The notes beneath the pieces were generated by a model, which worked only from the letters and a program-made list of their open reading frames with translations, ran no database searches and was not told the DNA's origin. 20,993 nt of DNA from a virus: the IMG/VR virus record IMGVR_UViG_3300037246_000313, positions 1-20,993 of that record. The stretch is one strand, 5' to 3'. The position numbers were made by a program, and so were the translations under genes. Within the stretch, counting starts at the first letter, position 1, and each line of letters opens with the position of its first letter. This document shows, piece after piece, positions 3,511-20,993 of the stretch.

Positions 3511-3512
3511 CA

Positions 3513-4677: not shown

Positions 4678-4705
4678 ACACCTCTTTTATTAGGGGTGTT
4701 TTTTT
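4678..4705 (+). terminator. Rho-independent terminator after major capsid gene
   Basis: ACACCTC (4678-4684) pairs with GGGGTGT (4693-4699), seven pairs including one G-T, around an 8-base loop, followed by a T tract at 4699-4705. It lies 31 bases after the capsid stop and just before promoter-like box P3, so it separates the head unit from the neck unit. Confidence 0.85.
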
Positions 4706-4714
4706 ATGCTTAAA

Positions 4715-4728
4715 ATTTGTTATCTTTG
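4715..4728 (+). promoter_or_regulatory. Late promoter candidate P3 (before neck genes)
   Basis: ATTTGTTATCTTTG differs at one base from the box before the portal and protease and includes TATCTTTG at 4721-4728. It begins ten bases after the capsid terminator's T tract and lies 31 bases before the ATG at 4760. A promoter directly after a terminator is a strong positional argument. Confidence 0.65.
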
Positions 4729-4759
4729 ATATAAATAATATTGATAATACAAACACATT

Positions 4760-4921
4760 ATGATAGTTAAAGTTGATTTTTATTGCACGGTTGAGAAAAA
4801 GACATATTTAAGAGGTGGTAAATATTTAGGTACTCGCAAAGACATCGATAACATGCTCATCAAAGAAGATAAAGACAAAGTTTCCACTAAGGAGCTTAAA
4901 CAGGTTAAAAAGACTAAATAA
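4760..4921 (+). CDS. Small lysine-rich protein (53 aa), unknown
   Basis: A 53-residue frame begins with MIVKVDFYCTVEKKTYLRGG and ends at a TAA whose last base touches the ATG of the connector gene. It is the first gene after promoter box P3 and is directly coupled to the neck genes. Composition is rich in Lys and charged residues, with a short N-terminal beta-like part (1-25) and a charged helical tail (30-53). Short proteins of this form between capsid and connector are frequent in Bacteroidota phages. No known motif is seen; a head decoration or accessory connector role would be a guess. Confidence 0.65.
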   Translation: MIVKVDFYCTVEKKTYLRGGKYLGTRKDIDNMLIKEDKDKVSTKELKQVKKTK

Positions 4922-5392
4922 ATGGCATACTTAGACGTAATACCTTTAGCGGACGCAAAGAGCTATCTTAGGATAGATGACACTCAAAACGAGACGGACG
5001 CGGAAATAACGAGCATGATAAAGAGCGCGCTTGCTTATGTAGAAAAGCGTACTAATGTTATGGTTTACGCTAGAGATAAGGATTTTGTTGTAATAGATAA
5101 CTTGATAAGGATTTACGATTACCCTATTAACTCGACAGTAGAACCTACGGAAAACGTATCTATTGAGGTTAAAACGCTTTATAGTATTTACTGCTCTACG
5201 GATTCGAGCGTACTTACTTTAAATGTCGGATATACTGATCCTGCAAATGTGCCTAACGAAATGATAGACGCAGGGCTTGAGATTATAAGCGCAATGTTTT
5301 ACAATCAAGAAGACGAAAAGAAAACATTTACAGAAACATTACCTTCTTACACAAAGGAGTTTTTAAGCGTTAACAGTAGATTTATACTATGA
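4922..5392 (+). CDS. Head-tail connector (gp6-like)
   Basis: This 156-residue protein resembles the HK97 gp6/SPP1 gp15 adaptor family, which forms the ring under the portal through which DNA exits. The diagnostic N-terminal text is 'LADAKSYLRIDD' (8-19) followed by acidic residues, 'ITSMIKSALAYVEKRTN' (28-44), matching the family pattern of a first helix, a D-x-x-D/E loop and a long second helix with K/R-T. The C-terminal helix 'EMIDAGLEIISAMFYNQED' also fits. Position between capsid and head closure genes is the usual one. It overlaps the next gene by four bases (ATGA). Confidence 0.85.
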   Translation: MAYLDVIPLADAKSYLRIDDTQNETDAEITSMIKSALAYVEKRTNVMVYARDKDFVVIDNLIRIYDYPINSTVEPTENVSIEVKTLYSIYCSTDSSVLTLNVGYTDPANVPNEMIDAGLEIISAMFYNQEDEKKTFTETLPSYTKEFLSVNSRFIL

Positions 5393-5595
5393 GTCAAATA
5401 GATATACATAAATTAATGAATGATTTAGAGGATGTTAATATCGACGGCAAAGTATTAGGCGGTTATAATATTAACGGAACTGTTAAATTCAACGAAAAAG
5501 CAAACAAAAACGATGTTTATTCATGGTTAAAAAGTGCGGGGATTGATCCATACGACATAACGGTAAAAGGGAGTAACTTTAATTGCAAAGCATGA
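5389..5595 (+). CDS. 68-residue protein of unknown function in the neck cluster
   Basis: The gene starts in an ATGA overlap with the connector and stops in an ATGA overlap with the head closure gene, so it is translationally coupled on both sides and almost certainly expressed. The protein runs MSQIDIHKLMNDLEDVNIDG through a beta-like middle to a short helix-turn 'DVYSWLKSAGIDPYDI' (about 43-58) and ends in FNCKA. It has no membrane segment. The middle and end suggest a small alpha/beta fold. I do not recognise the family; its placement suggests a neck or assembly role, which is inference only. Confidence 0.7.
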   Translation: MSQIDIHKLMNDLEDVNIDGKVLGGYNINGTVKFNEKANKNDVYSWLKSAGIDPYDITVKGSNFNCKA

Positions 5596-6011
5596 GACAA
5601 AGACGAATGTTTACTAAGAGAGTCGAGATTTGGGGCGATGCTCCTGTCTCCGATGGTTTCGGGGGGTTTATTCAAGAATCTACGTTTTTAGCGTCTTCAT
5701 GGGCGAAGATTAAAACCGTTTCCAATACGGCTAGAAATACTCAGAGAATAAGTGATTTAGGCATAATAGACCCATCATCTGCAATTATAGTAACACTTAG
5801 ATACAGAAACGATATAACTTACAACGGGGTTAATCAATTCATTAAATATAAAGACGTTAAATACGTTATAAAGACAAGCGCAATAAGCGTAGACTTAAAA
5901 GATACTTACATCGAAATAATAGCAGCTAGAGAAGCTTTGACAAATATTACTAATAGTCCAGTTGTGGCAATACCTACATTTGACAATACATTTGATAATA
6001 CATTTTTATAA
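5592..6011 (+). CDS. Head closure / head-tail joining protein
   Basis: A 139-residue protein with the pattern of the SPP1 gp16/HK97 gp7-like head-tail joining family, the second neck ring that retains DNA. Evidence: 'KRVEIWGDAPVSDGFGGFIQE' (split here at about residues 10-29), with the family's D-G-F-G-G turn, then 'LASSWAKIKTVS', then 'VTLRYRNDITYNGVNQFI' and the late strands 'DTYIEIIAARE'. I start it at the ATG at 5592, which overlaps the previous stop as ATGA; a TTG three codons upstream is less likely. The last 22 residues are an odd extension, ending in a duplicated TFDNTFDNTF encoded by a 12-base tandem repeat. Confidence 0.82.
   Translation: MRQRRMFTKRVEIWGDAPVSDGFGGFIQESTFLASSWAKIKTVSNTARNTQRISDLGIIDPSSAIIVTLRYRNDITYNGVNQFIKYKDVKYVIKTSAISVDLKDTYIEIIAAREALTNITNSPVVAIPTFDNTFDNTFL
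5977..6000 (+). repeat. Two tandem 12-base units at the end of the head closure gene
   Basis: ACATTTGACAAT (5977-5988) is followed by ACATTTGATAAT (5989-6000), one transition apart, with a further ACATTT after them. In frame it gives a TFDN repeat. It looks like a recent short duplication in a C-terminal extension. Confidence 0.7.
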
Positions 6012-6013
6012 AT

Positions 6014-7351
6014 ATGGCAACATTAGAAGAAGAAATAGACGCAATAATAGCCGCCTCGGTTGTTATAAAAGATGAAACAATAGAGGGTGCGAATACAGCT
6101 AATAGAGTTGGTGGCAATACTGAAGAGTTAGGTATATTTGTAAAAGGTCAATTATATACAAATGTAGTACCCATAAATAAGCCTGATGATTTTCCTGATG
6201 CTGTTAGTGGGGTTAGGGAGTTAGTGCCTAATAGCGGTGATAAGATTGCTTATATTGTCGCTTCTCTTAATATCGACATGGGTAGCGATAGATTCACGTG
6301 TACCGATGGCGACATAGTAATATTGGGAGCGCATAGAACAGCCTCGACTTTAACATCTACAACTTCGGGCAACTTCTTTACGTGTGTAGATGCTGCATTC
6401 TTTCCTGAGAAAATCGGTTTTAATTGCCCTAATGCAAAGGTTATTAAATTTACAGTACCAACAGCCTTAACGTTTAAGAGTCTTGTATGTGATAATGTTA
6501 TTATAAGGGCATGTGATTCAATATTCGATATTGAAGATGCTTTTACGTCTTCTTTCAGAACACTAACAGTTGTGTCTGCTACAACAAGCGGGATATTATG
6601 GACGGGGACAGGAGCTTCTCAGATAAACATGTCTAACGTATTAGCGTTATCATGGACGGGGACTTTGTTTGATTTAGGTACAGCGACTTTTGATATTATA
6701 GATATTGGTTCGGGGTGTCGATTTGTATCTCCAAATGGAACAACTATATTAAGCGGCATGTCTAGTAGTGGTAACCTAAAAACAGGAGGTCGTGCATTAG
6801 TGGGTAGCAATTTATTTAACGGGATAGGAACAGCGTTAAGTGGTATTGATACAATGGATTTAAAATGGCAATTTACGGGAAATACTTTTGTAGATGGAAC
6901 AACTTTAAACTCACGACAATTAGCCGACTGCTATTTAACAGCCTCGCGAACAGTTTCGATAGGAGGAGGGAATCAAGGTGTTTACACCCCTGTAGGGGGT
7001 TCTAATTGGGTTTCTGATATAGATGATAGGTTTACAGTATCGACAGCAGGTATAATTGAATACATTGGTATTAGAAATATAGAGGCTGAGTTTATGGTGT
7101 TTTCAACCGTTGAAAAACAAGGCGGAGGCTCAGATAAGATATGTAGTAAGATTGCTATAGATACTGGTAGCGGTTTTGTGGTTCAAGACAAAACTATGGG
7201 CTGCACCGAAAACTCAACGCCTACAGGTATAACCTCAGTAGGGTTATTCACTTTATCAACAGGAGATAAGCTTCAATTATTTGTATCAAATGAAGACGGC
7301 ACGAGCAATATTATAGTAAGTGGGTCAACAGGAATAATTAAAGGAGGTTAA
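6014..7351 (+). CDS. Putative fibre or appendage protein in the neck cluster
   Basis: A 445-residue protein of unrecognised family with fibre-like layout. Residues 1-50 are short helices and an attachment-like start ('EEEIDAIIAASV'). Residues 50 to about 310 are rich in Thr, Ser, Gly, Val and Ile with few charges and many short strand-like pieces, suggesting a beta-helix or beta-solenoid. The last 130 residues ('VGGSNWVSDIDDRFTVSTAG' onward, ending 'LSTGDKLQLFVSNEDGTSNI') resemble C1q/TNF-like jelly-roll tips found in Bacteroidota surface and phage fibre proteins. It lies between head closure and gp10-like genes, away from the tail fibres, so a head or neck fibre is the likely role. It starts two bases after the upstream stop and touches the next gene. 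Confidence 0.6.
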   Translation: MATLEEEIDAIIAASVVIKDETIEGANTANRVGGNTEELGIFVKGQLYTNVVPINKPDDFPDAVSGVRELVPNSGDKIAYIVASLNIDMGSDRFTCTDGDIVILGAHRTASTLTSTTSGNFFTCVDAAFFPEKIGFNCPNAKVIKFTVPTALTFKSLVCDNVIIRACDSIFDIEDAFTSSFRTLTVVSATTSGILWTGTGASQINMSNVLALSWTGTLFDLGTATFDIIDIGSGCRFVSPNGTTILSGMSSSGNLKTGGRALVGSNLFNGIGTALSGIDTMDLKWQFTGNTFVDGTTLNSRQLADCYLTASRTVSIGGGNQGVYTPVGGSNWVSDIDDRFTVSTAGIIEYIGIRNIEAEFMVFSTVEKQGGGSDKICSKIAIDTGSGFVVQDKTMGCTENSTPTGITSVGLFTLSTGDKLQLFVSNEDGTSNIIVSGSTGIIKGG

Positions 7352-7794
7352 TGGCTATAGGCAAAATAAAGGGATATGATAAGTTTATTAAGGATTTAAA
7401 GTCTTTAGGCAAAGAGGGTGTTAAACGTATTTCTGAAACAACCAAAGCCAACGCTCAAGAGATTGCCACCAATGCAAAAATAGCCGCTAAAGTAGGTAAG
7501 ACTGGCAAGTTACAGCAAAGCATTAAGCCTCTTGAAATAGATAACCTTAACTGGAAAGTGTCGGCTAATGCAACAGGTAACGCACCATACGCGGCTTATG
7601 TGGAGTTTGGAACGGGTGGCATGGTTAAAGTGCCTGATGAACTAAAAGAAATAGCTATTCAGTTTAAAGGTAAAGGCGTTAAAGAAATAAACCTACCCGC
7701 AAGACCTTTTTTATATCCTGCGTTCGTTAAAGGTAGGATTCAGTATATTAAGGATTTACAAGACGATTTAGACGATTTAACAAAAAGCATATGA
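7351..7794 (+). CDS. HK97 gp10-like neck/tail completion protein
   Basis: A 147-residue protein with the hallmarks of the HK97-gp10 family: an N-terminal helical part containing 'KANAQEIATNAKIAAKVGKT', the motif 'YAAYVEFGTG' (about 83-92) and 'LPARPFLYPAF' (about 111-121). These proteins sit at the head-tail interface and are needed for joining or tail completion. The start ATG overlaps the stop of the fibre-like gene by one base and its end overlaps the next gene (ATGA), so it belongs to the neck operon. Confidence 0.87.
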   Translation: MAIGKIKGYDKFIKDLKSLGKEGVKRISETTKANAQEIATNAKIAAKVGKTGKLQQSIKPLEIDNLNWKVSANATGNAPYAAYVEFGTGGMVKVPDELKEIAIQFKGKGVKEINLPARPFLYPAFVKGRIQYIKDLQDDLDDLTKSI

Positions 7795-8219
7795 TATTAA
7801 CACTTCCAGATAAATGGATTAGAAAAGCTATAAGCGACAAAATAAATAACATAACTGTTAACGGAAATGTTATACCTTGTTTTGATAGCAAAGTAAGCAC
7901 GAACATTATACCTTCTTACTATGTATTAATGTCTACACAAACAAATCAAGTAAACGAACTTACTAAATGCGGTGATGTTTGGGAGTCTAGCATATTACTA
8001 GATGTTTTTACACGTTACCCAATAACAGGGAATACAGGTAGTCGAGTGCTTGCAGATGATATTACGGACGCTGTACGGGCTTTAGTGAATAACTTAGTAT
8101 TAGAAGGAGGGTTTCAAGTGCAAAATCAGGTATTGGATTTTCCTAATGATATTTCAAGCGAGACACAGAATGAAAACGTATTTAGAAAGTTTATACGTAT
8201 TGAATTAACTATCAATTAA
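7791..8219 (+). CDS. Tail terminator / tail completion protein (DUF3168-like)
   Basis: This 142-residue protein lies directly between the gp10-like gene and the tail tube gene, the usual place for the protein that caps the tail tube end (gpU/SPP1 gp17-like). The sequence has the family's order: N-terminal helix 'WIRKAISDKINNITVNG', a central 'YYVLMSTQTNQ' strand, 'ESSILLDVFTRYP' and the helix 'SRVLADDITDAVRALVNN', then C-terminal strands. Similarity is judged by eye, so the placement carries much of the weight. Its last codons overlap the conserved block of promoter P4. Confidence 0.72.
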   Translation: MILTLPDKWIRKAISDKINNITVNGNVIPCFDSKVSTNIIPSYYVLMSTQTNQVNELTKCGDVWESSILLDVFTRYPITGNTGSRVLADDITDAVRALVNNLVLEGGFQVQNQVLDFPNDISSETQNENVFRKFIRIELTIN

Positions 8220-8233
8220 ATTTATTATCTTTA
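8206..8233 (+). promoter_or_regulatory. Late promoter candidate P4 (before tail tube gene)
   Basis: Bases 8206-8232 repeat 2792-2818 exactly over 27 positions. The -7 box is TATCTTTA at 8226-8233 (last base differs from consensus), 24 bases before the tail tube ATG. The first 14 bases of the repeat are also the last codons and stop of the upstream gene, so a promoter has been kept inside coding sequence. Confidence 0.66.
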
Positions 8234-8257
8234 CATAAACAATAAAATATTACTATA

Positions 8258-8701
8258 ATGGCAGGAGAACAATTCATTAAAGGCGAAGAGGGTATACTAT
8301 CAGTTTGGGATGGTGCAGCTTATAGACCGATAGCATGTCTAACTTCAAACTCTTTGGCAACAGCTTTAAGTGTTTTAGAAACAAATACTAAGTGTGATCC
8401 AGGCAATACAATTAGACAAGGCGACCAATTCAGCTATGATATTTCATGTGATGGTAATTATATTGATACGACCTCAGTAGGTGGTGAAATCACGAAAGCG
8501 TCTCATGATTGGTTATTAGTAAAGCAAATGGCTAACGAAGATACTGAATGGAAACTAGACACGGGTTTAGCAGATACAATCTATTACGGAACAGCGATTT
8601 TAACAGATTTAAACTTAGATCAAGCGGTTAGTGAATTCAGCGTGTTTAGTGCTACATTAAGTGGTTCTGGTGCAATTGTATTAACCGATCCAAACGCGTA
8701 A
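8258..8701 (+). CDS. Major tail tube protein (TP901-1-like)
   Basis: A 147-residue protein resembling TP901-1-type major tail proteins, which stack as hexameric rings to make the siphovirus tube. Visible markers are 'MAGEQFIKGEEGILSVWDG', the strand 'YRPIACLTSNSLAT', the 'F-S-Y-D-I-S-C-D-G' stretch near 64-72, and the C-terminal 'FSVFSATLSGSGAIV' (about 125-139), all usual in Bacteroidota phage relatives. It has its own promoter-like box 24 bases upstream, matching the need for many copies. The tail assembly chaperone starts four bases after its stop. Confidence 0.87.
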   Translation: MAGEQFIKGEEGILSVWDGAAYRPIACLTSNSLATALSVLETNTKCDPGNTIRQGDQFSYDISCDGNYIDTTSVGGEITKASHDWLLVKQMANEDTEWKLDTGLADTIYYGTAILTDLNLDQAVSEFSVFSATLSGSGAIVLTDPNA

Positions 8702-8704
8702 TAA

Positions 8705-9058
8705 ATGAAAGCAACCATAAACGGTAAAGAAATTAGTTTTGGTTTTGGGTTGTACTTTTTAGGTAAGGCTCAAGGCGTTTTAGGAATGGAATTAGGCGAG
8801 TTATTAACCAGTTTAAAGACTCGTGCCGATATTGTTGACTTAATGTATGTTTCTGCTAAAACAGAAGCGTATTTAGACGATAAAATCTTTATCTATTCTA
8901 AGCGCGACTGGGTAGACCTATTCATAAATGATACTGCTGAGGTTAAAATAATTACTGATTGGGAGGCTGAATTTGTAAAGTCCGTACAAGGTTTATTTAA
9001 CCTTAAACAAGAAGATACTGAAAGTGAAACTAATCTAACAGTCGAAAAAAAAAAGTAG
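8705..9058 (+). CDS. Tail assembly chaperone, upstream frame (gpG-like)
   Basis: A 117-residue protein, MKATINGKEISFGFGLYFLG onwards, placed between the tail tube and tape measure genes, where siphoviruses encode the G/GT tail assembly chaperones that bind the tape measure protein during tail growth. It ends E-K-K-K-stop in a run of ten A bases, immediately before TAG. The second chaperone frame begins there in the -1 register. The short form would be made by most ribosomes and the fusion by a minority. The C-terminal 15 residues are acidic and low-complexity, as expected of a linker before the T domain. Confidence 0.85.
   Translation: MKATINGKEISFGFGLYFLGKAQGVLGMELGELLTSLKTRADIVDLMYVSAKTEAYLDDKIFIYSKRDWVDLFINDTAEVKIITDWEAEFVKSVQGLFNLKQEDTESETNLTVEKKK
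9049..9055 (+). promoter_or_regulatory. -1 programmed ribosomal frameshift site A AAA AAG
   Basis: In the register of the upstream chaperone the codons are GAA AAA AAA AAG TAG (9044-9058), so 9049-9055 is the heptamer A AAA AAG, a highly slippery bacterial -1 site. The TAG stop follows at once. The -1 frame is open from 9034 to 9390 with no ATG near its beginning. Slippage here joins ...EKKK to VDWANDIIS and gives a 228-residue fusion. Confidence 0.85.
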
Positions 9059-9390
9059 ATTGGGCTAATGATATTATATCGGTGGCTATTGGTGAATTAA
9101 AATGCTCATCTTTAGATTATGTTTACAGAATGACATGGGCGGAGTTTGAACTTCGCCTTTTCAGTTTCAATAGGTCAGAGAAAAGGGAAGAGTATAAACT
9201 AAGACGTCAAGCATGGATAACTTATATAAGCCCCTACCAGAACCCTAAAAAACTAAGAGGCATGACAGAATCTAAGTTTTGGAATATATCAGGAGACAAG
9301 CCGAAACAAGTTACAGAAGCACACAAGAAAAGGTTTTTAGAAAAGTATCAAGAATATTTATTAAAAAAGGCAGAACATGGCAGAGCTTAA
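9055..9390 (+). CDS. Tail assembly chaperone, frameshift-expressed part (gpGT-like)
   Basis: The -1 frame after the slippery site encodes 111 residues, beginning VDWANDIISVAIGELKCSSL and containing 'YRMTWAEFELRLFSFNRSEK' split over about residues 20-39 of this part. The only internal candidate start, a GTG at 9082, lacks a ribosome site and lies 24 bases after the upstream stop, while the frame is open back through the slippery run; translation as a fusion is therefore more likely. The T-like domain should bind the tape measure protein, whose ATG at 9377 overlaps the end by 14 bases. The protein is basic and helical with several Trp/Tyr. A sequencing error in the ten-A run is an alternative explanation but would need to be coincident with a canonical site. 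Confidence 0.8.
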   Translation, partial: VDWANDIISVAIGELKCSSLDYVYRMTWAEFELRLFSFNRSEKREEYKLRRQAWITYISPYQNPKKLRGMTESKFWNISGDKPKQVTEAHKKRFLEKYQEYLLKKAEHGRA

Positions 9391-11416
9391 AGTCGAGATA
9401 GGGGCAGATGTAAAAGGATTAGTTGACGCTTTAGCCAAAACGGAAAACAGCGTAAAAAAGACTAATGCCACCTTACAGAAATTAATATCTCGTAATGTTT
9501 CGGTTGAGAAATCTATTGACGGTTTATCAAAGTCTTATGAATCGGGCGCAATATCTGAGGCGACTTATACTAAGAACTTAAAACGATTAGAGGGAGTCCA
9601 AAAGAGTTTTGATACACAAATAGGAAAGTCAGAAAAGCAATTAAATACTTTAAATAAAAGATATAAGCAATTAGGCGGTTCATCTTCTAAGGCAGCGGCT
9701 AAAGGCGTTAACAGGGTAGGCAAAGCGGGGGTAAATGCCGCGCCTGCAATGCAAGAATTCTCTAGGGTTATTCAAGATGCTCCTTTCGGTATTCAAGGTG
9801 TCGCGAATAATATACAACAATTAACATCTCAATTTGGTTATCTACAAGCGAAAACAGGAAGCGCAAAGTCCGCGTTAAAAGCTATGTTAGGCACGTTATC
9901 GGGTCCCGCGGGGATATTATTTGCCGTGAGTGCGGTTACTTCATTAATGGTGTCTTATGGTGATGAGATGCTTGCAATGATAGGTACTACTGATAAATTA
10001 GCTAAAGCAACTAAGGAATTCTTAGGCGAAGCAAGAGCGGAACAGATAGAACTTAAAACTCTTATCGGATTAGCGCAAAACGAAGCTAATAGTAAAGCTA
10101 TAAGGGAAGAGGCTATAAAAAAGCTTAATGAAAAATACAAGGATTACTTAGGAAATTTAACACTTGAGACTGTTAATAGTAGCAAGGCGAAACTTGCAGT
10201 GGATGAGCTTTCTAAATCCATAATACGACAGGCTCAAATAAGGGGTATATCTAAATTAATAGAAGAAAAGGCTTTAGAATTAGCAGAGGAAGAAATTGAT
10301 GCTAAAAAAGACGCTGTAAAAGAAGGTAACAGATTAGCGACCACTAATAGAAACGTAAACAAATCTTATGATGAGCAAAGACTTGCTTTTGCTTCTTTAG
10401 GTAAGAATTATAAGAAAATACAAAAAGGCTTAAGTAAAACAGTTAAAGAAAAGGTTATATCTAGCTCTATAAAAGAAGAGACAAAGGATATAGTTTCGGA
10501 AATAGACGAATTAACTAGTTTTTTAGAAAGTAAGCTAAGTGAGCAATTTGCTTTTGATTCTTTATTTAAAACAGATGATAAAGAAAGTAAGTCAAATGAT
10601 AAATCTCTTAAAAGTGCTGCCTCTTTAGCTGAAAGAAAAAGAAAACTATTTGCTCGACTATCTAACGACCAAATAAAAGAAGATGACAGGGTTAGAAATG
10701 AGTTTATAGCAAGATGGGAGGGTGTTCAAATAGAGGTCGATCCTTTTGCTGGTTTATTTCAAGAGGGTAAACAAGTCTTTAAAGACCTTAATGATGCTTT
10801 TGATAAAGCGGAACAAAACGCTAAAATATTCTCAGATGCCACAGGAAGCGCGATAGGTGCTTTATCTAACCAAATAGCGGAAGATTTGAAAACAGGTAGC
10901 GCGGTTGTAGACGCTTTTACGGGTTCTATTCTTAGTTCTTTAGGTAATTTATTAGCGGGAATGATTGCAAATTACGCCTCTCAATTAGCTGCTAAATCAG
11001 CAGCTACAGCTACAAGTATAGGGCTAGACACAGCTAAAGCTACAGGAGCAGCCATCGCAGGAGGTGCTGAATCAGGAGCCGCTACAGGTGCGGGTGCTAT
11101 ATTCTCTATACCTACAATGATTGCCGCTTTAGTGGGTGTTGTAGGTTCTGCATTCGGGTCAATAGGCTCTTTTGCAAAAGGTGGTTTTTCTGGTGATGAC
11201 AATCTAGCGATGTTAAATAAAAACGAGTTAATACTACGCCCAATGGAGCAAGCGGCTTTATACAACGCTATTAGAGGCGGTAATTTAGGCAGTTTAGCAC
11301 CAAGCACAGGAGCAGGACTAACAAATCAATCAATACGAGTTTATGGCTCTTTACGAGGTAGTGATATTAATTTATCAAATGCAAGAGCAGGGAAAAATAA
11401 TAATAGATTCTTTTAA
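9377..11416 (+). CDS. Tape measure protein
   Basis: A 679-residue protein that would set tail length and enter the cell envelope with DNA. Residues 1-100 are a charged coiled-coil region. A hydrophobic stretch around 165-205 ('GPAGILFAVSAVTSLMV') and a second Ala/Gly-rich hydrophobic zone around 490-600 flank a long Lys/Glu-rich helical part (215-470). Near 597-618 comes 'FAKGGFSGDDNLAMLNKNE', close to the 'GG...MLxxGE' motif seen near the C-terminus of many tape measures. By the usual 0.15 nm per residue rule the tail would be about 100 nm. It follows the frameshifted chaperone pair, the standard partner arrangement. No lytic domain is visible. Confidence 0.9.
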   Translation: MAELKVEIGADVKGLVDALAKTENSVKKTNATLQKLISRNVSVEKSIDGLSKSYESGAISEATYTKNLKRLEGVQKSFDTQIGKSEKQLNTLNKRYKQLGGSSSKAAAKGVNRVGKAGVNAAPAMQEFSRVIQDAPFGIQGVANNIQQLTSQFGYLQAKTGSAKSALKAMLGTLSGPAGILFAVSAVTSLMVSYGDEMLAMIGTTDKLAKATKEFLGEARAEQIELKTLIGLAQNEANSKAIREEAIKKLNEKYKDYLGNLTLETVNSSKAKLAVDELSKSIIRQAQIRGISKLIEEKALELAEEEIDAKKDAVKEGNRLATTNRNVNKSYDEQRLAFASLGKNYKKIQKGLSKTVKEKVISSSIKEETKDIVSEIDELTSFLESKLSEQFAFDSLFKTDDKESKSNDKSLKSAASLAERKRKLFARLSNDQIKEDDRVRNEFIARWEGVQIEVDPFAGLFQEGKQVFKDLNDAFDKAEQNAKIFSDATGSAIGALSNQIAEDLKTGSAVVDAFTGSILSSLGNLLAGMIANYASQLAAKSAATATSIGLDTAKATGAAIAGGAESGAATGAGAIFSIPTMIAALVGVVGSAFGSIGSFAKGGFSGDDNLAMLNKNELILRPMEQAALYNAIRGGNLGSLAPSTGAGLTNQSIRVYGSLRGSDINLSNARAGKNNNRFF

Positions 11417-14178
11417 TGGCATATACAGAAAAATACTTTATTACTTATTGCGATAAGTTCGGGCATAATTACAGGGTTTCTATACTCCAAAACGAGTATG
11501 TAGGTGACACAACCGAATTAGAAGCAGATGTTAACCCTATGATTGTTGATTACGAGAGTTCAGAAGACTTTAAGTTCAGCCCAATACGCCCAAGCGTAGG
11601 AAGCGTCAATATGGTTTTCGGTACTGATAACGGTGTGGACTTTGAAGAGTTTTGGTCGGCTGATGAGAGGGAATTTAAAGTTGAACAGTATTACGATGGT
11701 TCTATTAAATGGGTTGGGTTTGTTATCCCTAACGGGTTTAGCTATCAGTTAAAAGGAGGTCTTTACCATGCTAATATACAAGCGGCTGATGGTCTTAGCA
11801 CTTTAGAAGCATTTCAATTTAGAGATGATAACGGGTTTCCTTATGGGAATCAGGATTTAGTATATAATAATGAATTTGAATTTCCTTTTATATTAATATT
11901 TACCGAGATATTAAGAAAGTTAGATTTAGGTTTAGATTTATGGGCATGCGTTGATAGTTACGAAAAAACTATGACTAAAACAGGTGACACAAGAGACGCT
12001 GATCCTTTAGCGAACGCTTATGTAAACGTTAGAACCTATATAAATAAAACAGAAACAAGAGAGAAACCTTACTGGTCTAGAGCAGGGGAAGAGTGGAACT
12101 GCTATGAGGTTATCGAAAATTGTTTATATATTTTCGGTGCTAAATTATATCAAGAAAACGGCACATGGCGAATAAAAACTATTAATACAGATGCGAATTA
12201 CGGAACAGGTGTAACTCAATTGTATTGGCGTAAATATAATACTTTAGCGGTTTACTTACCTAATTACGAAATTGTAAACGATACGAGGGACATACCTTGT
12301 GATAGTAGTGACGCTTATATCTTGAGTGACGATTCCGTAATGAGAATGGATGAGGTTTATAAGGCGTTTAGAATGAATTATGAATATACGTTTTTACGAG
12401 AGGGAGACGATCCTTTGAGTTTATTAAAAAACGGTAACTTTTACGACTTTAATAACACAAGCGCGTTGGCTGCTCCTGCTTTTTGGGAGCGTTATACTAA
12501 TTATTCCGATAGCTTAGGCATGATGAGAATGCGGGAAGATGTCGCCCCGTTTGACGAAATAGGATTTGATAAATGCCTCGAGCTTTGGACTCAAAAAACA
12601 GGTATTAGCACTGCGGGAACTTTTTATGGGAATACGCCTGATAAATCACTTTTATTCTCAGAACAACCCTCTATAATTAGAGGTGATTTATTTACGCTTA
12701 ATATATGGCATAAATATAGAGGTAAGGCTGACATGGCTAATTTCAACAATGGCGGGGCTGTATATTTTAAACCATTATTAAAGCTCATATTAAAAGGAGA
12801 AAACGGCGGATGGTGGTGTCTTATGAATAAGACCGATAGCTATAATGAGGCTATATGGCTTAAATACGAACCGAATGATTTTAATAATGATTTTAATCAT
12901 GCTTTTTACGATGCTAAAACCCTTGTAATAAACCCCAGCGCGTCCGTGGATTGGGATTCTGACACAAATACAGCTAATACTGAATTAAGAAAATTTAGAT
13001 GGTACAATAATATTTTAGATATTCCAGAAGCACCCGCATCGGGAACTTTATTTATACACCATCAAGGGGTTGGAGTTAATCAAAACGTGGGATGGGTTGA
13101 GTATGACAACCTAATATACCATTACTATAATACTAATTTCCTAACTGAAACCATATACGGTATAAATACGGGTATGATTGATACAAGCGGCAACTTCATA
13201 GAAGACCCAAGAGTAGCGGGTTTTGAATTAGGTTATATTTCTGATGAAGATAAATTGTCTCCTTTAAACGATTATATTTATGAGAACTCGAACACAAAAT
13301 ACACTCTTGAGCCTGATCCTATAACGGTATTTAACGGCGATGTGCAAGACGTTAATCATATCTCTAATATAATAGTTCCAACTAATGTTAGCGGAGGTAA
13401 AAACTTCTGGAATACATTAAACGAAGATTACGCAAATAGCTCTATTGGGTTGGTTACTGTAAAAGATGTAATGAGACAGTATGCGAAACCTAAAAGGATA
13501 TTTGAAGCGTCTATCTTTATAGAAAACCCATCACTAGGTGCTGTTTATACTTTTGATGCAATACCAAATGTTAGGTTTATACTTCAAAGGGGCTCTATAA
13601 ATAGCGCGAAGCAATATATTGAAGATGCTACATTCTTTGAGATTAGTAACGATGTTTTACCTGATGGTGGTCGCGAGGGGTTTGTCGGCACATTGCCGCT
13701 TTTCCAATATACAGGAAATTCATGGTGTGAAACTGTTAACGGTGAAAACACAGGTTATTTATTAGAAGAATTAATTAATATAAATGTAGCTTCTGAAACT
13801 TACGGAGAACTCAAACAAGAAAGGAGTTTAAATACTGTTGATGCGTGTCCTTTATTACAGCCGATACAATACCTTTGGAGTTCTGATGATGTAAGCTTAA
13901 ATACGGCTGCTTTAGATGTTAGAAACATAAACCAAATAGATAATAAAAATGTTACGGTTACATTTACCAATGAAGATAATAATTATCTTTACTTTATACA
14001 TTTAAAGTCTTTAGGAGTTGTTGAGGTTGTAAACACAAATACAAGCCCTAGCAATGTTGTTAGTGATTGGATATACTTATCAGATATAACATTAAATGGT
14101 TATCTTTATCGTGTATTTAGAACAGATTATACAATGAGTGATTTTAGTGGTTTTTTACATAATTTTAAATTTTCATAG
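11416..14178 (+). CDS. Large tail tip / baseplate hub protein
   Basis: This 920-residue protein follows the tape measure, where distal tail and tail-associated hub proteins are encoded. It begins MAYTEKYFITYCDKFGHNYR and has beta-rich N-terminal text including 'PIRPSVGSVNMVFGTD' (about 56-71) and 'GSIKWVGFVIPNGFSYQL' (about 96-113), a pattern I associate with Bacteroidota phage tail proteins that combine Dit- and hub-like parts. The middle (330-600) is aromatic- and Asn-rich, like a carbohydrate-binding beta domain. No peptidase motif is recognised. The start overlaps the previous stop by one base. The exact role, hub or side tail protein, cannot be separated by sequence reading. Confidence 0.68.
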   Translation: MAYTEKYFITYCDKFGHNYRVSILQNEYVGDTTELEADVNPMIVDYESSEDFKFSPIRPSVGSVNMVFGTDNGVDFEEFWSADEREFKVEQYYDGSIKWVGFVIPNGFSYQLKGGLYHANIQAADGLSTLEAFQFRDDNGFPYGNQDLVYNNEFEFPFILIFTEILRKLDLGLDLWACVDSYEKTMTKTGDTRDADPLANAYVNVRTYINKTETREKPYWSRAGEEWNCYEVIENCLYIFGAKLYQENGTWRIKTINTDANYGTGVTQLYWRKYNTLAVYLPNYEIVNDTRDIPCDSSDAYILSDDSVMRMDEVYKAFRMNYEYTFLREGDDPLSLLKNGNFYDFNNTSALAAPAFWERYTNYSDSLGMMRMREDVAPFDEIGFDKCLELWTQKTGISTAGTFYGNTPDKSLLFSEQPSIIRGDLFTLNIWHKYRGKADMANFNNGGAVYFKPLLKLILKGENGGWWCLMNKTDSYNEAIWLKYEPNDFNNDFNHAFYDAKTLVINPSASVDWDSDTNTANTELRKFRWYNNILDIPEAPASGTLFIHHQGVGVNQNVGWVEYDNLIYHYYNTNFLTETIYGINTGMIDTSGNFIEDPRVAGFELGYISDEDKLSPLNDYIYENSNTKYTLEPDPITVFNGDVQDVNHISNIIVPTNVSGGKNFWNTLNEDYANSSIGLVTVKDVMRQYAKPKRIFEASIFIENPSLGAVYTFDAIPNVRFILQRGSINSAKQYIEDATFFEISNDVLPDGGREGFVGTLPLFQYTGNSWCETVNGENTGYLLEELININVASETYGELKQERSLNTVDACPLLQPIQYLWSSDDVSLNTAALDVRNINQIDNKNVTVTFTNEDNNYLYFIHLKSLGVVEVVNTNTSPSNVVSDWIYLSDITLNGYLYRVFRTDYTMSDFSGFLHNFKFS

Positions 14179-15501
14179 ATGGCAGAGTTATTAGGTTATC
14201 AATTCGATAGAACGTTTGCTTCACCAATAGAGACTAATAGACAAGTCACTACGATAAACGACAGGGACAATATACAAACGTCTAAACGATGGCTCGGCAT
14301 GTTGGTTCATGTTGTTGCAGAGAATCAAACCTACGAGTTAAACGGGGGGCTTACAAACGCTTCATGGATTGAATCGGGTAGCGGTACTATAATTGGTGAT
14401 TCTGACGATATAACAGAAGGTACTATTAACCTTTTCATGACTAATGCGGAAAAAACCAAATTAGGTTATATTACGGTTGTTAATAGTATTGATTTAGATG
14501 TATTAAAAACTGATGTTGATGCGTTAGGTAGTGGGTTGATAATTAAAGATGATTGGGATGCTTCAGTAGGCACGTTTCCTGGCGGCGGGTCTGCTTTAAT
14601 AGGTTGGTTTTATATTGTAAACGTTGCGGGAACGGTTGATGGTGTATCGTTTGCTATTGGTGATAGTATTATTGCTAAGATAGATAACGCAAGTACTACT
14701 GTTTTCGCTGCTAATTGGATTCAAACACAAAGCACATCAGAAGTTACAAGCGTTGTAGGTTTAACGGGTGTTATATCTAAAGCAAGTCTTTTATCGGCTT
14801 TAAACGTTGAGGACGGTGCTAAGGATGATATGACAGGCGCGGAAATAGCAGCCGCGATAACATCGGAATTAGGTGTTGACGATTGGAAAACGAAACTAAC
14901 TAAAGCACAAGTTTTAGAGTTTGTTAATCAAGCAATAAACGCAGGGACTCAAACAAATATCGAGGTTTCTTATGAGTCTTTAACCGAGTCAATAGATTTT
15001 ACAGTTAAACCTTATATATCTACTTCTTACAATGACTTACCAGCGTTATTAGCAGATCAAGGTAATCAAGTTGATTATGTACTTTACGAGATAGCGGATG
15101 CAAGCGGTTTCGAGAGTATTACAGGCGGCGTTGCATGGGTAAGATATAAAGGAACTACTATAGGAGATGAAACTGATTATCTTATAACGAGTAGTCAAAA
15201 AAGAACAGGAGTGCGTAATGTTGCAAGCGTATCTACAACACAAACATTTAACCATGCTTTATACAGTGATTTTAAATTCACAATGACAGCCGACACTATA
15301 TTTTCGTCAATTAATTTACCAACAGGAAATAGAACGCTTGAATTTACAATGAAGTTAACAGGTGAATTTGTGCCAACATTTGACTATTTAGATATAACTT
15401 TATTAGGCGACACATACGACGGTACTATATGGAATTTCTACGCGGTACAAATACACAACGGGGACACAGAAGAGGTAACAGCATTTATAACTAATATGTA
15501 A
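14179..15501 (+). CDS. Tail fibre / tail tip protein
   Basis: A 440-residue protein adjoining the hub gene without a gap. The N-terminal 70 residues ('MAELLGYQFDRTFASPIETN', with 'RWLGMLVHVVAENQTYEL') form a small beta domain of a kind found at the start of fibre proteins in Bacteroidota phages. Residues 85-260 are mixed, with a helix-rich segment 'AEIAAAITSELGVDDWKTKL' and a repeated idea of 'GDS.I.K' strands. The last 110 residues are beta-strand-rich ('RTLEFTMKLTGEFVPTFDYL') and may be a tip domain. No chaperone or enzymatic motif is visible. Gene order and composition suggest a structural fibre or its adaptor. Confidence 0.65.
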   Translation: MAELLGYQFDRTFASPIETNRQVTTINDRDNIQTSKRWLGMLVHVVAENQTYELNGGLTNASWIESGSGTIIGDSDDITEGTINLFMTNAEKTKLGYITVVNSIDLDVLKTDVDALGSGLIIKDDWDASVGTFPGGGSALIGWFYIVNVAGTVDGVSFAIGDSIIAKIDNASTTVFAANWIQTQSTSEVTSVVGLTGVISKASLLSALNVEDGAKDDMTGAEIAAAITSELGVDDWKTKLTKAQVLEFVNQAINAGTQTNIEVSYESLTESIDFTVKPYISTSYNDLPALLADQGNQVDYVLYEIADASGFESITGGVAWVRYKGTTIGDETDYLITSSQKRTGVRNVASVSTTQTFNHALYSDFKFTMTADTIFSSINLPTGNRTLEFTMKLTGEFVPTFDYLDITLLGDTYDGTIWNFYAVQIHNGDTEEVTAFITNM

Positions 15502-15504
15502 GCT

Positions 15505-16431
15505 ATGGGAAAGAAAATGTTTATGAGGGTTTTTAGGACTAGTTCTTTTACAATGCAAGTAAAAACAGATAACACAGGAGCGAGCGCAGATAATCAGTTT
15601 ACTATTCCCGCGGACACTGGAACATATACCTATGATTACGATGTGACTACGAGTGACGGGCAGATTATAAACGGGAACACAGGTAGCTTAACAATAACAT
15701 TTCCAAGCGGAGCGGGAATATATGAGGTTAATATAAGTAGAGTATACCCATATATTAACATGAATGACTCAGGGGATAAAGAGAAACTAACTTCAATCGA
15801 GCAATGGGGAAATATAGTATGGAGTAGTTTTGCAAACTCTTTCTCTTCATGCCAATTTTTAGAAACTGTTAAAAAAAGCACGCCTGATTTAAGCAATGTC
15901 ACGAAACTTAATGCTATGTTTCAAACAACATCAAACATAACTACTGTAGATGTGTCTAATTGGGATGTTTCAAATATAACAGATTTTAACGGGATGTTTA
16001 ATATTAGTGGAGTGACCGAGATAAAAGGGTTAGACACGTGGGTTTTAAACACAAATGAAAATATTTCTTTACAATCGTTACTTAGAAATTGTAGCGCATT
16101 AAGTCTCCCGAATGGAGTTTTTGATAATTGGGATACAAGTAAAGTAACTAATATTCGAGAGATGCTTCGATTTGTTGCTTACGATGGTAGTTTTGCTAAT
16201 TGGGATATTTCTAATATAACTAATTTTATTAATTTTATGGTAGGCTCTGCTGGTATATCGACTGTTAATTATGATGCGACCTTGATAAGTTGGGCGGGGC
16301 AATCTCCAAGTATTAATGAAAGCGTTAGTTTTGGTGGTGCAAAGTACACTTTAGGAGGTGCAGCAGAAGCAGCAAGGGATACATTAGTTAATACTTACGG
16401 CTGGACAATAACAGACGGGGGCGGAATATAA
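15505..16431 (+). CDS. Receptor-binding candidate with BspA/DUF285 repeats
   Basis: A 308-residue protein. Residues 1-75 form a beta domain ('FRTSSFTMQVKTDNTGAS' region). From about 75 to 260 come BspA-like/DUF285 leucine-rich-type repeats with the tell-tale 'VDVSNWDVSNITDFNGMF' (about 152-169), 'FDNWDTSKVTNIREML' (about 206-221) and 'FANWDISNITNFINFM' (about 230-245). The C-terminus 'YTLGGAAEAARDTLVNTYGW' with 'TITDGGG' is the usual closing module of such proteins in flavobacteria. No signal peptide or sorting domain is present, which fits a virion protein rather than a secreted surface protein. Being last in the tail operon, it is the best candidate for contact with the host receptor. Confidence 0.75.
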   Translation: MGKKMFMRVFRTSSFTMQVKTDNTGASADNQFTIPADTGTYTYDYDVTTSDGQIINGNTGSLTITFPSGAGIYEVNISRVYPYINMNDSGDKEKLTSIEQWGNIVWSSFANSFSSCQFLETVKKSTPDLSNVTKLNAMFQTTSNITTVDVSNWDVSNITDFNGMFNISGVTEIKGLDTWVLNTNENISLQSLLRNCSALSLPNGVFDNWDTSKVTNIREMLRFVAYDGSFANWDISNITNFINFMVGSAGISTVNYDATLISWAGQSPSINESVSFGGAKYTLGGAAEAARDTLVNTYGWTITDGGGI

Positions 16432-16438
16432 AAAAACT

Positions 16439-16642
16439 ATGAATAAAAATAATTTATGTTATCCAAATATAAACACGTGGTTTATTTGTTGGAACGAAGA
16501 CAAAATAGAATTAATGTCTTACGGGTTAATTACCCCTGAGCAATGCATGAAAACACCATGGACTGAAATCGATTTTTACACGATAGAATCGGAATGGTTA
16601 GAAGTATTAATAAATAATAACATAGACCCTTATGAGGAATAA
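16439..16642 (+). CDS. 67-residue protein after the tail fibre gene, unknown
   Basis: A short protein rich in Trp, Tyr and acidic residues, MNKNNLCYPNINTWFICWNE to NNIDPYEE. It begins seven bases after the receptor-binding candidate and overlaps the following membrane gene by 11 bases, so it lies within the same unit. Residues 25-60 read as two short helices ('GLITPEQCMKTPWTEIDFYT'). No membrane segment is seen. Its placement directly after a fibre gene makes a fibre chaperone or attachment factor conceivable, but nothing in the sequence shows this. Confidence 0.7.
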   Translation: MNKNNLCYPNINTWFICWNEDKIELMSYGLITPEQCMKTPWTEIDFYTIESEWLEVLINNNIDPYEE

Positions 16643-16934
16643 ATATTATAAACTAATCGCATTTTTCGATAACTCAGATTTCTTTTCACCGAAACCCGAC
16701 AAAGCAAAGCACGCTCAAATATTTGGCTTATTCGCATTCGCATTAAATATAATACTGTTTATAATAGGAGGTGCGGAGTTACAAGCGTGGTCTTTAGGTA
16801 TCGTTGTAGTCGCTGCGGTTGGTTTAGAACTATTCCAAGTAATCGCGCAAGTAGGTTATTTTAGTCTTATGGATATTTATTTCAGTGTTCAATGGGCTTT
16901 CTTGATTTATATGCTTACAAAATTAATTAGTTAA
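16632..16934 (+). CDS. Three-span membrane protein (VanZ-like appearance), lysis cluster
   Basis: This 100-residue protein has a polar N-terminal 28 residues and three predicted membrane segments at about 29-46 ('QIFGLFAFALNIILFIIG'), 52-70 and 83-98. The stretch 'GLELFQVIAQVGYFSLMDIY' between segments 2 and 3 recalls the E-x-x-Q...S-x-x-D arrangement of VanZ-like proteins, although the length is short. It precedes the holin and endolysin genes, so a second holin, antiholin or accessory lysis role is plausible. Family assignment is tentative. Start ATG 16632 overlaps the previous gene's end. Confidence 0.7.
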   Translation: MRNKYYKLIAFFDNSDFFSPKPDKAKHAQIFGLFAFALNIILFIIGGAELQAWSLGIVVVAAVGLELFQVIAQVGYFSLMDIYFSVQWAFLIYMLTKLIS

Positions 16935-16978
16935 ACGTATCAAAAAAAATAGTATTTTTATACATTATAAGAAACGAT

Positions 16979-17482
16979 ATGATACGATTACAAATAGACC
17001 CAACCTACTTTGAAGCGTTATGTAAATACGGCAACCAGATAAAGACGGCAATTTATTCTGTTTTTATCTTTTTAAATATAGATGTTGATGTGGTAAAGAT
17101 TTTAATTTGGTTAATGATTATAGATACTGGGTTTGGAATCGTTAAATCGGTTGTTATGGGTAGGCGGTTTAGTTTTAAGAGGCTTTTTATGGGCTTATCT
17201 ATAAAGACCCTCGTAATACTTATACCTATGACATTGGCTTTAGTCAGTAAAGGATTAAACACTTATGATTTTACACCGTTAGTAGATATTGTTTTAAAAA
17301 TACTGTTAGTGTCTGAGGGTTATTCGATACTTACATCGATGTACGTTATTAAAACAAAGAAGGATGTTAAGGAATTGGACATTGTTACATTGCTTTTAGA
17401 GTCATTACGAAAAGGATTAAGAGGTTTAATAGAAATGTGGTTAGGTAAACTTGAAAACATGAACAACTATAAAGATAAATAA
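16979..17482 (+). CDS. Phage holin (holin family 4 type)
   Basis: A 167-residue membrane protein resembling the phage_holin_4_1 (toxin secretion/phage lysis) family, which opens the inner membrane so the endolysin can reach the wall. Membrane segments lie at about 37-57 ('VVKILIWLMIIDTGFGIVKS', containing the family's Asp-x-x-Gly/Thr-Gly at about 49), 74-92 ('TLVILIPMTLALVSKG') and 101-122. The loop 'GRRFSFKRLFMGLSIKT' between the first two is basic, typical of this family. The C-terminal 45 residues are charged and cytoplasmic-looking. It is five bases upstream of the endolysin gene. Confidence 0.85.
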   Translation: MIRLQIDPTYFEALCKYGNQIKTAIYSVFIFLNIDVDVVKILIWLMIIDTGFGIVKSVVMGRRFSFKRLFMGLSIKTLVILIPMTLALVSKGLNTYDFTPLVDIVLKILLVSEGYSILTSMYVIKTKKDVKELDIVTLLLESLRKGLRGLIEMWLGKLENMNNYKDK

Positions 17483-17487
17483 TAATA

Positions 17488-17904
17488 ATGAATCATTTAA
17501 ACGTAGCATTAAGCCAATACGGTATTAAAGAAATCGCAGGCTCTAAAGATAATCCAGAAATATTAAAGTACTTTGATTCTTTAGGGTACAACGGAACAGA
17601 ATTAAAAGACGAAACGGCATGGTGTGCCGCCTCTCTTAATTGGATATTAAAAACATCATGTAAACCATACACAAGAAAACTACATGCTCGAAGCTTCTTA
17701 AACGTTGGTGAACAGGTAGAGCATCCCCAATTAGGAGATATTGTAGTTTTATGGCGTGAGAGCGTTAAGAGTTGGAAAGGGCATGTAGGTCTTTATATTT
17801 CAGAGACAGAACATTCGATTTATATATTAGGGGGTAATCAAGGCAATACATATTGTATTAAGCCATATCCAAAGAGTAGATTATTAGAATATAGAAGAGT
17901 ATAA
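17488..17904 (+). CDS. Endolysin, NlpC/P60-CHAP-type peptidase (TIGR02594-like)
   Basis: A 138-residue single-domain cysteine peptidase that should cleave peptidoglycan peptide cross-links at lysis. The catalytic Cys is C46 in 'ETAWCAASLNW', the His is H99 in 'KGHVGLYIS', and the third polar residue is probably N117 in 'GGNQGN', matching the TIGR02594/CHAP-like layout C...H...N. 'QLGDIVVLW' (81-89) before the His is the usual G-D-hydrophobic strand. There is no signal peptide or wall-binding domain, so export would depend on the holin just upstream. The downstream membrane-anchored gene starts one base after its stop. Confidence 0.88.
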   Translation: MNHLNVALSQYGIKEIAGSKDNPEILKYFDSLGYNGTELKDETAWCAASLNWILKTSCKPYTRKLHARSFLNVGEQVEHPQLGDIVVLWRESVKSWKGHVGLYISETEHSIYILGGNQGNTYCIKPYPKSRLLEYRRV

Positions 17905-20122: not shown

Positions 20123-20365
20123 ATGGCAACGGAAGACATAAAGAAACTAAGAGCAGAAAACAAAGCGTATGAAATAACAGAAAACAGTTTATTGAAGTAT
20201 GTTGAAAAATTAGAAAAAAGTAATGATGATTTACGTAAGAAAGTTAAAACTTTAAATATACACATTGTTAGCAATTCCGTTTGTCCTGATTGTGGATATA
20301 CTAAAGTTAAAAAGTCTTTTGAAGATTTTGAAAGGTGCGAAGGTTGTGAGTGGACGAGCAAATGA
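20123..20365 (+). CDS. Coiled-coil plus zinc-ribbon small protein
   Basis: An 80-residue protein with an N-terminal coiled coil (about 4-47, 'KKLRAENKAYEITENSLLKY') followed by a zinc-ribbon-like module with C54-x-x-C57 ('CPDCGY') and C72-x-x-C75 ('CEGCEW'). The 14-residue spacing between knuckles is short but workable. Such proteins may dimerise through the coil and bind nucleic acid or a protein partner. The function is not known. It begins 50 bases after the HTH gene, breaking the tight overlaps seen upstream, and its stop is three bases before the attC-like element E1. Confidence 0.72.
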   Translation: MATEDIKKLRAENKAYEITENSLLKYVEKLEKSNDDLRKKVKTLNIHIVSNSVCPDCGYTKVKKSFEDFERCEGCEWTSK

Positions 20366-20368: not shown

Positions 20369-20489
20369 CTAACGGACGAGTGTATGAGCAGTAGCCTACA
20401 CGAACTAAGTAAATAGAAACAAAATTAAATATTAAACAACTGCAATAGTAAAAACGCCTAACAGCTATTGCTTATACACATTGTTAGGC
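20369..20489 (+). repeat. attC-like imperfect palindrome E1
   Basis: An outer stem CTAAC (20369-20373) with GTTAG (20483-20487), then unpaired GGACGA opposite ATT, then a 16-pair inner stem GTGTATGAGCAGTAGC (20380-20395) with GCTATTGCTTATACAC (20464-20479) that includes two G-T pairs, and a 68-base terminal loop. The order, an R box stem, unpaired spacer, L box stem and variable loop, is that of integron attC sites; the right box GTTAGGC fits GTTRRRY. The loop also contains GCCTAAC (20456-20462), complementary to the right box, and GCAATAG (20442-20448), complementary to CTATTGC in the right arm, so alternative folds exist. No integrase is present in the window. Confidence 0.62.
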
Positions 20490-20496
20490 AACGTTT
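20483..20496 (+). repeat. Left copy of inverted repeat flanking the 57-residue gene
   Basis: GTTAGGCAACGTTT is the reverse complement of AAATGTTGCCTAAC (20661-20674) at 13 of 14 positions. It starts with the GTTRRRY box of E1 and ends three bases before the ATG at 20500. Confidence 0.75.
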
Positions 20497-20499
20497 AAG

Positions 20500-20673
20500 A
20501 TGGAAGTATTTGCAATAATAATTTTTGGACTAGCAACAGTAAGAACAATAACACCTTTTGCTAAACAAGAAACATATAAAAAAGGAACTGACTTTATTGC
20601 TAGTTTGATTATAGCGGGATTAATGGCGTGGTGCTATGTTTGGTTTATAAAACTAATTATAAATGTTGCCTAA
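20500..20673 (+). CDS. 57-residue membrane protein in a cassette-like unit
   Basis: The frame reads MEVFAIIIFGLATVRTITPF, a polar stretch, then a second hydrophobic segment 'DFIASLIIAGLMAWCYVWFI' and ends KLIINVA. Two membrane segments at about 2-17 and 31-54 make a hairpin. Its TAA stop lies inside the element after it (GCC TAA CGG). The gene is bracketed by 14-base inverted repeats that match the cassette boundary boxes of integrons, so it forms a one-gene unit of about 190 bases. No family is recognised; small membrane proteins are common in integron cassettes and in phage defence or exclusion genes. Confidence 0.62.
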   Translation: MEVFAIIIFGLATVRTITPFAKQETYKKGTDFIASLIIAGLMAWCYVWFIKLIINVA

Positions 20674-20717
20674 CGGACGAGTATAAAAACAGTGCGATTT
20701 AATAATACAAAATTTAG
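20661..20717 (+). repeat. attC-like element E2 with right copy of the inverted repeat
   Basis: AAATGTTGCCTAAC (20661-20674) mirrors 20483-20496. From 20670, CTAACGGACGAGT repeats the first 13 bases of E1. A weak right side follows: ATAC at 20705-20708 can pair with GTAT at 20681-20684, and TTAG at 20714-20717 with CTAA at 20670-20673. It overlaps the stop of the 57-residue gene and ends five bases before the next ATG. Confidence 0.5.
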
Positions 20718-20721
20718 TAAA

Positions 20722-20952
20722 ATGGAAGAATTGAAACAAAAATTAATAGACCTTAAACAAGCTCTGCCAATTATGAGCCAACTTGGGGGGTTAAATAAAA
20801 GTGCATTAAAGACTATAACAGAAGAACTAGACCAAGCATTGTTTTTATACAATGCTAGCAATATGTTAACGGTTAAAGAAGTGCTTGATATATTAGATAA
20901 TAGCGACCATTTAGATGATGCTAAAACCTTAATAAGAGAAACAGTTAGTTAA
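20722..20952 (+). CDS. 76-residue helical protein, unknown
   Basis: The protein runs MEELKQKLIDLKQALPIMSQ to LIRETVS and appears all-helical, with leucine-rich amphipathic pieces and the segment 'MLTVKEVLDILDNSDHLDDA'. I start at the ATG at 20722; the in-frame GTG at 20692 lies inside repeat E2 and the ten residues it would add have no sense in composition. It follows the cassette-like 57-residue gene and precedes element E3 by six bases. No motif or family is recognised. Confidence 0.65.
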   Translation: MEELKQKLIDLKQALPIMSQLGGLNKSALKTITEELDQALFLYNASNMLTVKEVLDILDNSDHLDDAKTLIRETVS

Positions 20953-20958
20953 TTATTG

Positions 20959-20980
20959 CTAACGGATTGTATAACGTTAG
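20959..20980 (+). repeat. Compact attC-like hairpin E3
   Basis: CTAACG (20959-20964) pairs with CGTTAG (20975-20980) around the loop GATTGTATAA. The left side CTAACGGA matches E1 and E2, and the right side TATAACGTTAG resembles the E1 right arm. It lies six bases after the stop of the 76-residue gene and near the end of the window, so whether another gene unit follows cannot be seen. Confidence 0.55.
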
Positions 20981-20993
20981 AATTTAAAATTAT

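Follow-up and report, generated by a model that had tools for sequence, protein, structure and literature searches.

An integron-like cassette array in a Bacteroidota phage points to a recombination system with its own recombinase and inverted cassettes

In classical integrons the gene cassettes point away from the attI site, and it is the antisense strand of the attC site that folds and recombines. Integrons are seen as almost absent from Bacteroidetes, and in Bacteroidetes proper IntegronFinder 2.0 identified one complete integron, from Salinibacter (PMC9024848). The report by Qi et al. (PMC9892861) describes integron components in 21 phages, including Polaribacter phage P12002L, the recombination of one P12002L attC with attI1 through IntI1, and a P12002L cluster that includes two methyltransferases. 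The reverse integron of Treponema denticola has its integrase gene in the direction of the cassettes and the order intI, attI, cassettes; PCR running from intI through attI to the first cassette shows that the genes point away from attI (PMC4909258). Our search of the open-access literature found no description of a non-IntI platform with inverted cassettes. Here we describe a phage site, E1, which is very probably the first visible site of a cassette array in a Bacteroidota phage, the array forming part of an integron-like system that has a recombinase of its own.

The stretch of DNA analysed (the window) is an entire virus record of 20,993 nt. It carries a phage structural and lysis module (139–17904, + strand) with genes for portal, head protease, major head protein, connectors, tail and a tail-type lysozyme, which runs in the same direction as the cassettes; the small genes after the module also read rightwards. 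Just 5' of E1 lies an 80-aa gene (20123–20365, + strand) whose product is a coiled coil with a zinc-ribbon-like end (DUF2225, E 1.5e-4). Relatives of this gene were sought in viral contigs and none was found, nor was a cassette start matching it found upstream. A search based on the lysozyme for nearer relatives of the phage yielded two distant loci with no comparable array, and a capsid-based search one 71% relative that also bears an array, with other cassettes. A weak Rfam match to GcvB at 4566–4707 (30.7 bits, below the gathering score of 42) is most likely due to chance.

E1 (20370–20489, + strand) runs from TAAC (20370–20373) through GTTAGGC (20483–20489). Its outer stem is formed by CTAAC (20369–20373) and GTTAG (20483–20487), its spacers are GGACGA (20374–20379, 6 nt) and ATT (20480–20482, 3 nt), and its inner stem, GTGTATGAGCAGTAGC (20380–20395) against GCTATTGCTTATACAC (20464–20479), has 16 pairs, two of them G-T, and encloses a loop of 68 nt (20396–20463). 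Direct reading thus bore out the arms, spacers, loop and coordinates of the original prediction. The arrangement is that of an attC fold, an inverted repeat with paired outer and inner boxes and asymmetric unpaired spacers. Compared with the core boxes RYYYAAC/GTTRRRY, the right box of E1 (GTTAGGC) fits and the left (TACTAAC) does so partly; GTT/AAC itself is fixed by the design of the site scan described below, and many members of the site family carry GTTATAN or GTTGTGN at the core. An Rfam search at E1 gave no match and reported no attC family.

The original prediction covered only part of the feature, as E1 is followed by a degenerate second site and the start of a third. Cassette 1 (20483–20674, + strand) starts with GTTAGGCAACGTTTA and ends with TAAATGTTGCCTAAC, an inverted repeat complementary at 14 of 15 positions. 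It contains a gene for a hydrophobic protein of 57 aa (20500–20673, + strand; no Pfam match), the stop codon of which, TAA, falls within the cassette-end CCTAAC, in the second copy of the TAACGGACGAGTATA motif. E2 (20671–20859, + strand), recognised from its inverted repeat, the site scan and its sequence, comprises TAAC (20671–20674), GGACGA (20675–20680) and a stem (20681–20695/20836–20850, 14 of 15 paired) followed by AAT; its core is damaged, with GCTAGC in place of the expected GTTAGC. By the cassette-end rule, cassette 2 (20854–20963, + strand) would start with GCTAGCAATA, in which the core T is changed to C, and end with TATTGCTAAC. A 76-aa frame (20722–20952) begins in the E2 loop and extends past the damaged core into cassette 2, so that it looks like a loop frame joined to the cassette gene through loss of the core. 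The sequence TAACGGATTGTATAACG begins the third site, E3 (20960–20993, + strand), which is cut by the contig end. With E1, E2 and E3 and no PF00589 match, hence no tyrosine recombinase, the window has the make-up of a CALIN (at least two sites, no integrase nearby). Since there is no recombinase in the window, the array may be a stranded cluster; the window being a contig fragment, an integrase may also lie beyond its end.

E1-type sites recur widely. Exact copies of the motif CTAACGGACGAGTRTA were found in 37 viral stretches and in 24 from genomes; in most of the viral stretches and a few Bacteroidota genomes it is followed by the matching arm and the GTT core. Scanning the fetched loci for the order TAACG, spacer, stem, loop, stem, spacer, GTT gave 100 structures against 7 from the same sequences reversed, which excludes a chance origin of E1 and upholds the claim that its pairing exceeds what chance would give. 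Members of the family have loops of ∼20 to 300 nt, and their stem sequences differ. A site in Cellulophaga phage phi18:3 is 92% identical to E1 over 133 nt, the similarity ending at the site edges and both neighbouring genes being unrelated. The E1-like sites total 14 (80–93% identity); they come from different phages and from one bacterial MAG, sit between unrelated genes and have distinct flanks, with a single pair sharing a flank. The arms of E1 are therefore not part of one fixed gene pair, which would have spoken against an exchangeable site; other phages and Bacteroidota MAGs also have E1-type paired arms between unrelated genes, an occurrence that had been named as support for the original prediction.

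The same hairpin in many contexts could also reflect a dispersed element of the MITE, REP or IS200/605-end type that, as a hairpin, enters the spaces between genes by itself. However, the hairpin bodies vary greatly around a constant plan, the sites form head-to-tail arrays in one orientation that end at one recombinase, and it is the intervening genes, not hairpins alone, that are bounded by matched ends, which makes such an element extremely unlikely. A 93-kb phage contig (G005; L085 and L086, 58000–93027) carries ∼36 attC-like sites within 35 kb, which puts its array on the scale of a large chromosomal integron; no tyrosine recombinase was found on this contig.

The preferred reading, an array of exchangeable cassettes, was examined at the cassette ends, where the sequence after GTTN was compared with that before the next TAAC in 220 unique cassettes. 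Beyond the core, the ends of one cassette pair over a mean run of 3.84 nt, versus 0.82 nt (sd 0.07) in shuffled sets, and the two sides of one site show no excess (0.84 nt). The arms outside the core therefore belong to the cassettes and not to the sites, as expected if whole units were exchanged at the core. The paired ends extend ∼15 nt, with a tenth position that is near-constantly non-Watson-Crick. In 179 of 186 cassettes the longest reading frame is in the sense orientation. Like integron cassettes, these units hold unrelated genes, have their own matched ends and form arrays in one orientation. Six larger phage-borne cassette proteins were checked: three are N4/N6 DNA methylases and one a D12 adenine methylase, the others being an RNA ligase and a PAPS-reductase-like protein. 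Geneless cassettes of 29–38 nt with matched ends, of the form GTTANNNNN TCGTTTTAATG NNNNNTAAC, are also present (the last 29 nt before attI in L170, L181 and L194; L005:12363–12400).

In several array phages, a gene for a tyrosine recombinase of ∼267 aa directly follows the last site. Three recombinases of this type were aligned and the alignment was used to fetch 80 viral loci, in which 348 sites precede the recombinase gene on its own strand, 5 follow it and 2 occupy the opposite strand (22 in reversed controls). Upstream sites are present in 67 of the 70 recombinase loci with more than 200 nt upstream; the loci were gathered by similarity, some are near-copies, so that they do not represent 70 independent cases, and some 'viral' contigs may be misclassified. 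The recombinases are roughly 54–70% identical to the query. Their best NCBIfam match is a Xer/integron model, below cut-off, and the integron-integrase model TIGR02249 scores them at 150–161 bits (cut-off 265). The distance from the catalytic K to HxxR is 59 residues, compared with 106 in IntI, 64–65 in the chromosomal relatives and 68–72 in XerC and XerD, which means that the family lacks the insertion specific to IntI. A tree of 78 recombinases places the family in one clade (99) and IntI in a second (100), with chromosomal recombinases of Bacteroidia grouping with the family (a quick search with some long branches). A 428-aa tyrosine recombinase beside the phi18:3 site and similar long integrases in two other contigs were considered as partners and rejected, being typical phage integrases of inconsistent placement.

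A candidate attI was recognised in the interval that separates the last cassette from the recombinase start: in 69 of 74 loci [TC]AAC leads into a stretch resembling TATnATATAT, compared with 0.011 occurrences expected per 220 nt. The sequence to the left of this motif is complementary to the beginning of the last cassette (pairing of 4.98 versus 1.06, sd 0.15), and this cassette carries no site body towards the recombinase; motif position, pairing and the missing site body together place attI at the 3' end of the array. Related recombinases occur in 105 of 295 Bacteroidia genomes (same recombinase search, E up to 1e-60). These are ∼350–390 aa long and stand beside the same kind of arrays on Bacteroidia chromosomes: sites were found in 16 of 40 fetched neighbourhoods, a proportion limited in part by contig ends, and 45 of the 47 sites lie 3' of the recombinase on the opposite strand (controls, 4). 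In most chromosomal loci with a nearby last cassette, an attI-like TAAC-N4-TTATA lies 42–113 nt from the recombinase stop and likewise pairs with the start of that cassette. In both types, phage and chromosomal, the motif thus lies beside the integrase and abuts a cassette, as attI does. In neither type do the cassette genes point away from it; they face attI, the inverse of the classical integron. Read from attI, the phage type has the classical skeleton (divergent recombinase, attI, array) with the genes turned around.

The strand that folds was assessed in the same terms. The original prediction had the bottom strand of E1 folding; folded alone as DNA, that strand does not form the structure (z −0.8) because of the 68-nt loop, and by itself E1 is no exceptional single-stranded DNA hairpin. 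When the + strand of E1 is folded as RNA, the result is this very structure (z −3.5; of 200 shuffles, 1 was as good). Across the family, the gene-sense strand is the more stable at 198 sites and the other at 10 (198 of the 208 sites that differ), whereas in five class 1 attC sites the antisense strand folds equally well or better. The expectation of a folded site has held, but with the gene-sense ('top') strand folding best; the antisense strand would be the folding one only if the array were read from attI. Among 281 stems the inner stems are continuous, with no extrahelical bases on one arm, the feature by which attC strand choice is made. They contain 459 G-T pairs against 72 A-C, the G-T pairs at set positions (6–7 and 11–12 from the stem base) and the other positions mostly Watson-Crick. 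These fixed G-T pairs may stand in for the protruding bases of classical attC; because their positions are fixed, they are only suggestive as evidence of the folding strand. A second test concerned alike site bodies with unrelated flanks, which have a common downstream edge in 91 pairs and a common upstream edge in 11 (about chance level); therefore, the site body travels with the downstream gene. The E1-like sites follow suit, with GTTAGGCA downstream in 11 of 12 and a varying upstream edge. Two independent tests, one on the strand that folds and one on the downstream gene to which the site body is linked, agree with an inverted polarity.

Better folding of the gene-sense strand would equally be expected of an mRNA element and in this respect counts against our main reading. 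If the sites were intercistronic hairpins that stabilise or regulate phage mRNA, the good fold of E1 as RNA would also find an explanation. Such a role leaves unexplained the complementarity of cassette ends across a whole gene, the presence of a recombinase and an attI motif where the arrays end, and identical sites between unrelated genes, and E1 has no Rfam match. An RNA element is thus very improbable as the explanation of the arrays; a secondary RNA role of the sites is possible.

We also asked how the arrays relate to IntI. Of 296 genomes of the phylum Bacteroidota, 84 have true IntI (TIGR02249 over cut-off), in many cases at 430 bits or higher; this frequency far exceeds what the literature on Bacteroidetes suggests. 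However, IntI was rejected as the array partner: none of the 20 fetched IntI neighbourhoods contains an array of E1-type sites, and none of 12 array-bearing genomes or phages has IntI over cut-off.

Polaribacter phage P12002L provides a direct link to the published record. Its complete genome (48,689 nt; loci L019 and L039 of the present analysis) has at least nine sites of the E1 family in a methyltransferase region and no recombinase. Sites of the family flank the methyltransferase gene at 38118–38816 and, as the cluster published in PMC9892861 includes two methyltransferases, the P12002L site tested with IntI1 is probably of the E1 family. Phages without a recombinase may use that of the host or of a co-resident element. 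The P12002L segment 32276–32514 is 94.6% identical over 239 nt to a Pukyongia MAG, and a second cassette is common to a phage and a MAG (92% over 254 nt). Cassette exchange with a host integron, as originally proposed, is thus supported by like cassettes in phage and host arrays, except that the recombinase is not IntI. In and beside the array of this lytic phage (L066, 29–39 kb) there are five DNA methyltransferase or modification genes, one of them 78% identical over 792 nt to a Lacinutrix MAG sequence (L069).

E1 might alternatively be part of an ordinary IntI-type integron fragment captured by a phage, that is, a CALIN served by classical IntI with genes pointing away from attI. The core GTTAGGC fits GTTRRRY, IntI is present in the phylum, and PMC9892861 reports phages with CALINs, P12002L with its nine sites of the E1 family among them, and one P12002L attC recombining through IntI1. 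But none of the 12 array-bearing genomes or phages has IntI over cut-off, none of the 20 fetched IntI neighbourhoods has an E1-type array, the array recombinase falls outside the IntI clade with 59 residues where IntI has 106, and the polarity is inverted. We regard an IntI-type fragment as unlikely. The E1-type system lacks both an IntI integrase and the classical cassette orientation, and since these are two defining properties, it is not a classical integron. The attC reading of E1 therefore stands as to an integron-type cassette site and gives way as to recombinase clade and polarity.

We consider it probable that Bacteroidia and their phages share a widespread second kind of integron, with a recombinase from a non-IntI clade and cassettes inverted so that the genes face attI. 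The cassettes, sites, candidate attI and recombinase, and their geometry, are read from sequence. In the mechanism we envisage, the recombinase, whether phage-borne, supplied by another element or chromosomal in the host, would bind the hairpin of the gene-sense strand and cut at the GTT/AAC core, and units of site body plus gene would be excised from, or inserted at, attI. Phages and hosts could thereby exchange genes such as those for DNA methyltransferases. Because the genes face attI, they would not be driven by a promoter there; they may be expressed by read-through from upstream, in the window from the phage operon running into the array.

Such a system would have escaped notice, its integrase and sites being outside the models on which integron detection relies, and it is probable that bacteria and phages exchange small genes by way of a platform missed by standard integron searches. 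If functional, this platform would be a major unrecorded route of small-gene trade between Bacteroidota and their phages, including methyltransferases that can guard phage DNA. Its scale is suggested by the 105 of 295 Bacteroidia genomes with a recombinase of the array-linked clade and by the arrays in many phages. Inverted polarity combined with a separate recombinase would offer a natural test of which integron features are essential and which are history.

With classical integrons, class 1 and chromosomal, the E1-type system has in common complementary cassette ends, unpaired spacers, the GTT/AAC core, a single cassette orientation, an attI beside the recombinase gene and one strand that folds better. 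It differs from them in its recombinase clade, which lacks the IntI insertion, in genes that face attI, and in paired ends of ∼15 nt and a continuous inner stem with fixed G-T pairs and no protruding bases. The Treponema reverse integron resembles the phage type in that the integrase gene has the direction of the cassettes, but its genes point away from attI and those described here toward it (PMC4909258). XerC, XerD, XerA and phage tyrosine recombinases are similar to the 267-aa recombinase in catalytic domain and size, whereas the latter is tied to cassette arrays and the attI motif, not to dif or attP. The closest likeness is to the phage CALINs of Qi et al. (2023), since the P12002L sites belong to the E1 family; that report (PMC9892861) presents them as ordinary attC sites in divergent directions and describes no dedicated recombinase, attI or inverted polarity. 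The attC sites of P12002L were thus already known, and what is new is the putative dedicated non-IntI recombinase, its attI and the inverted polarity of the cassettes.
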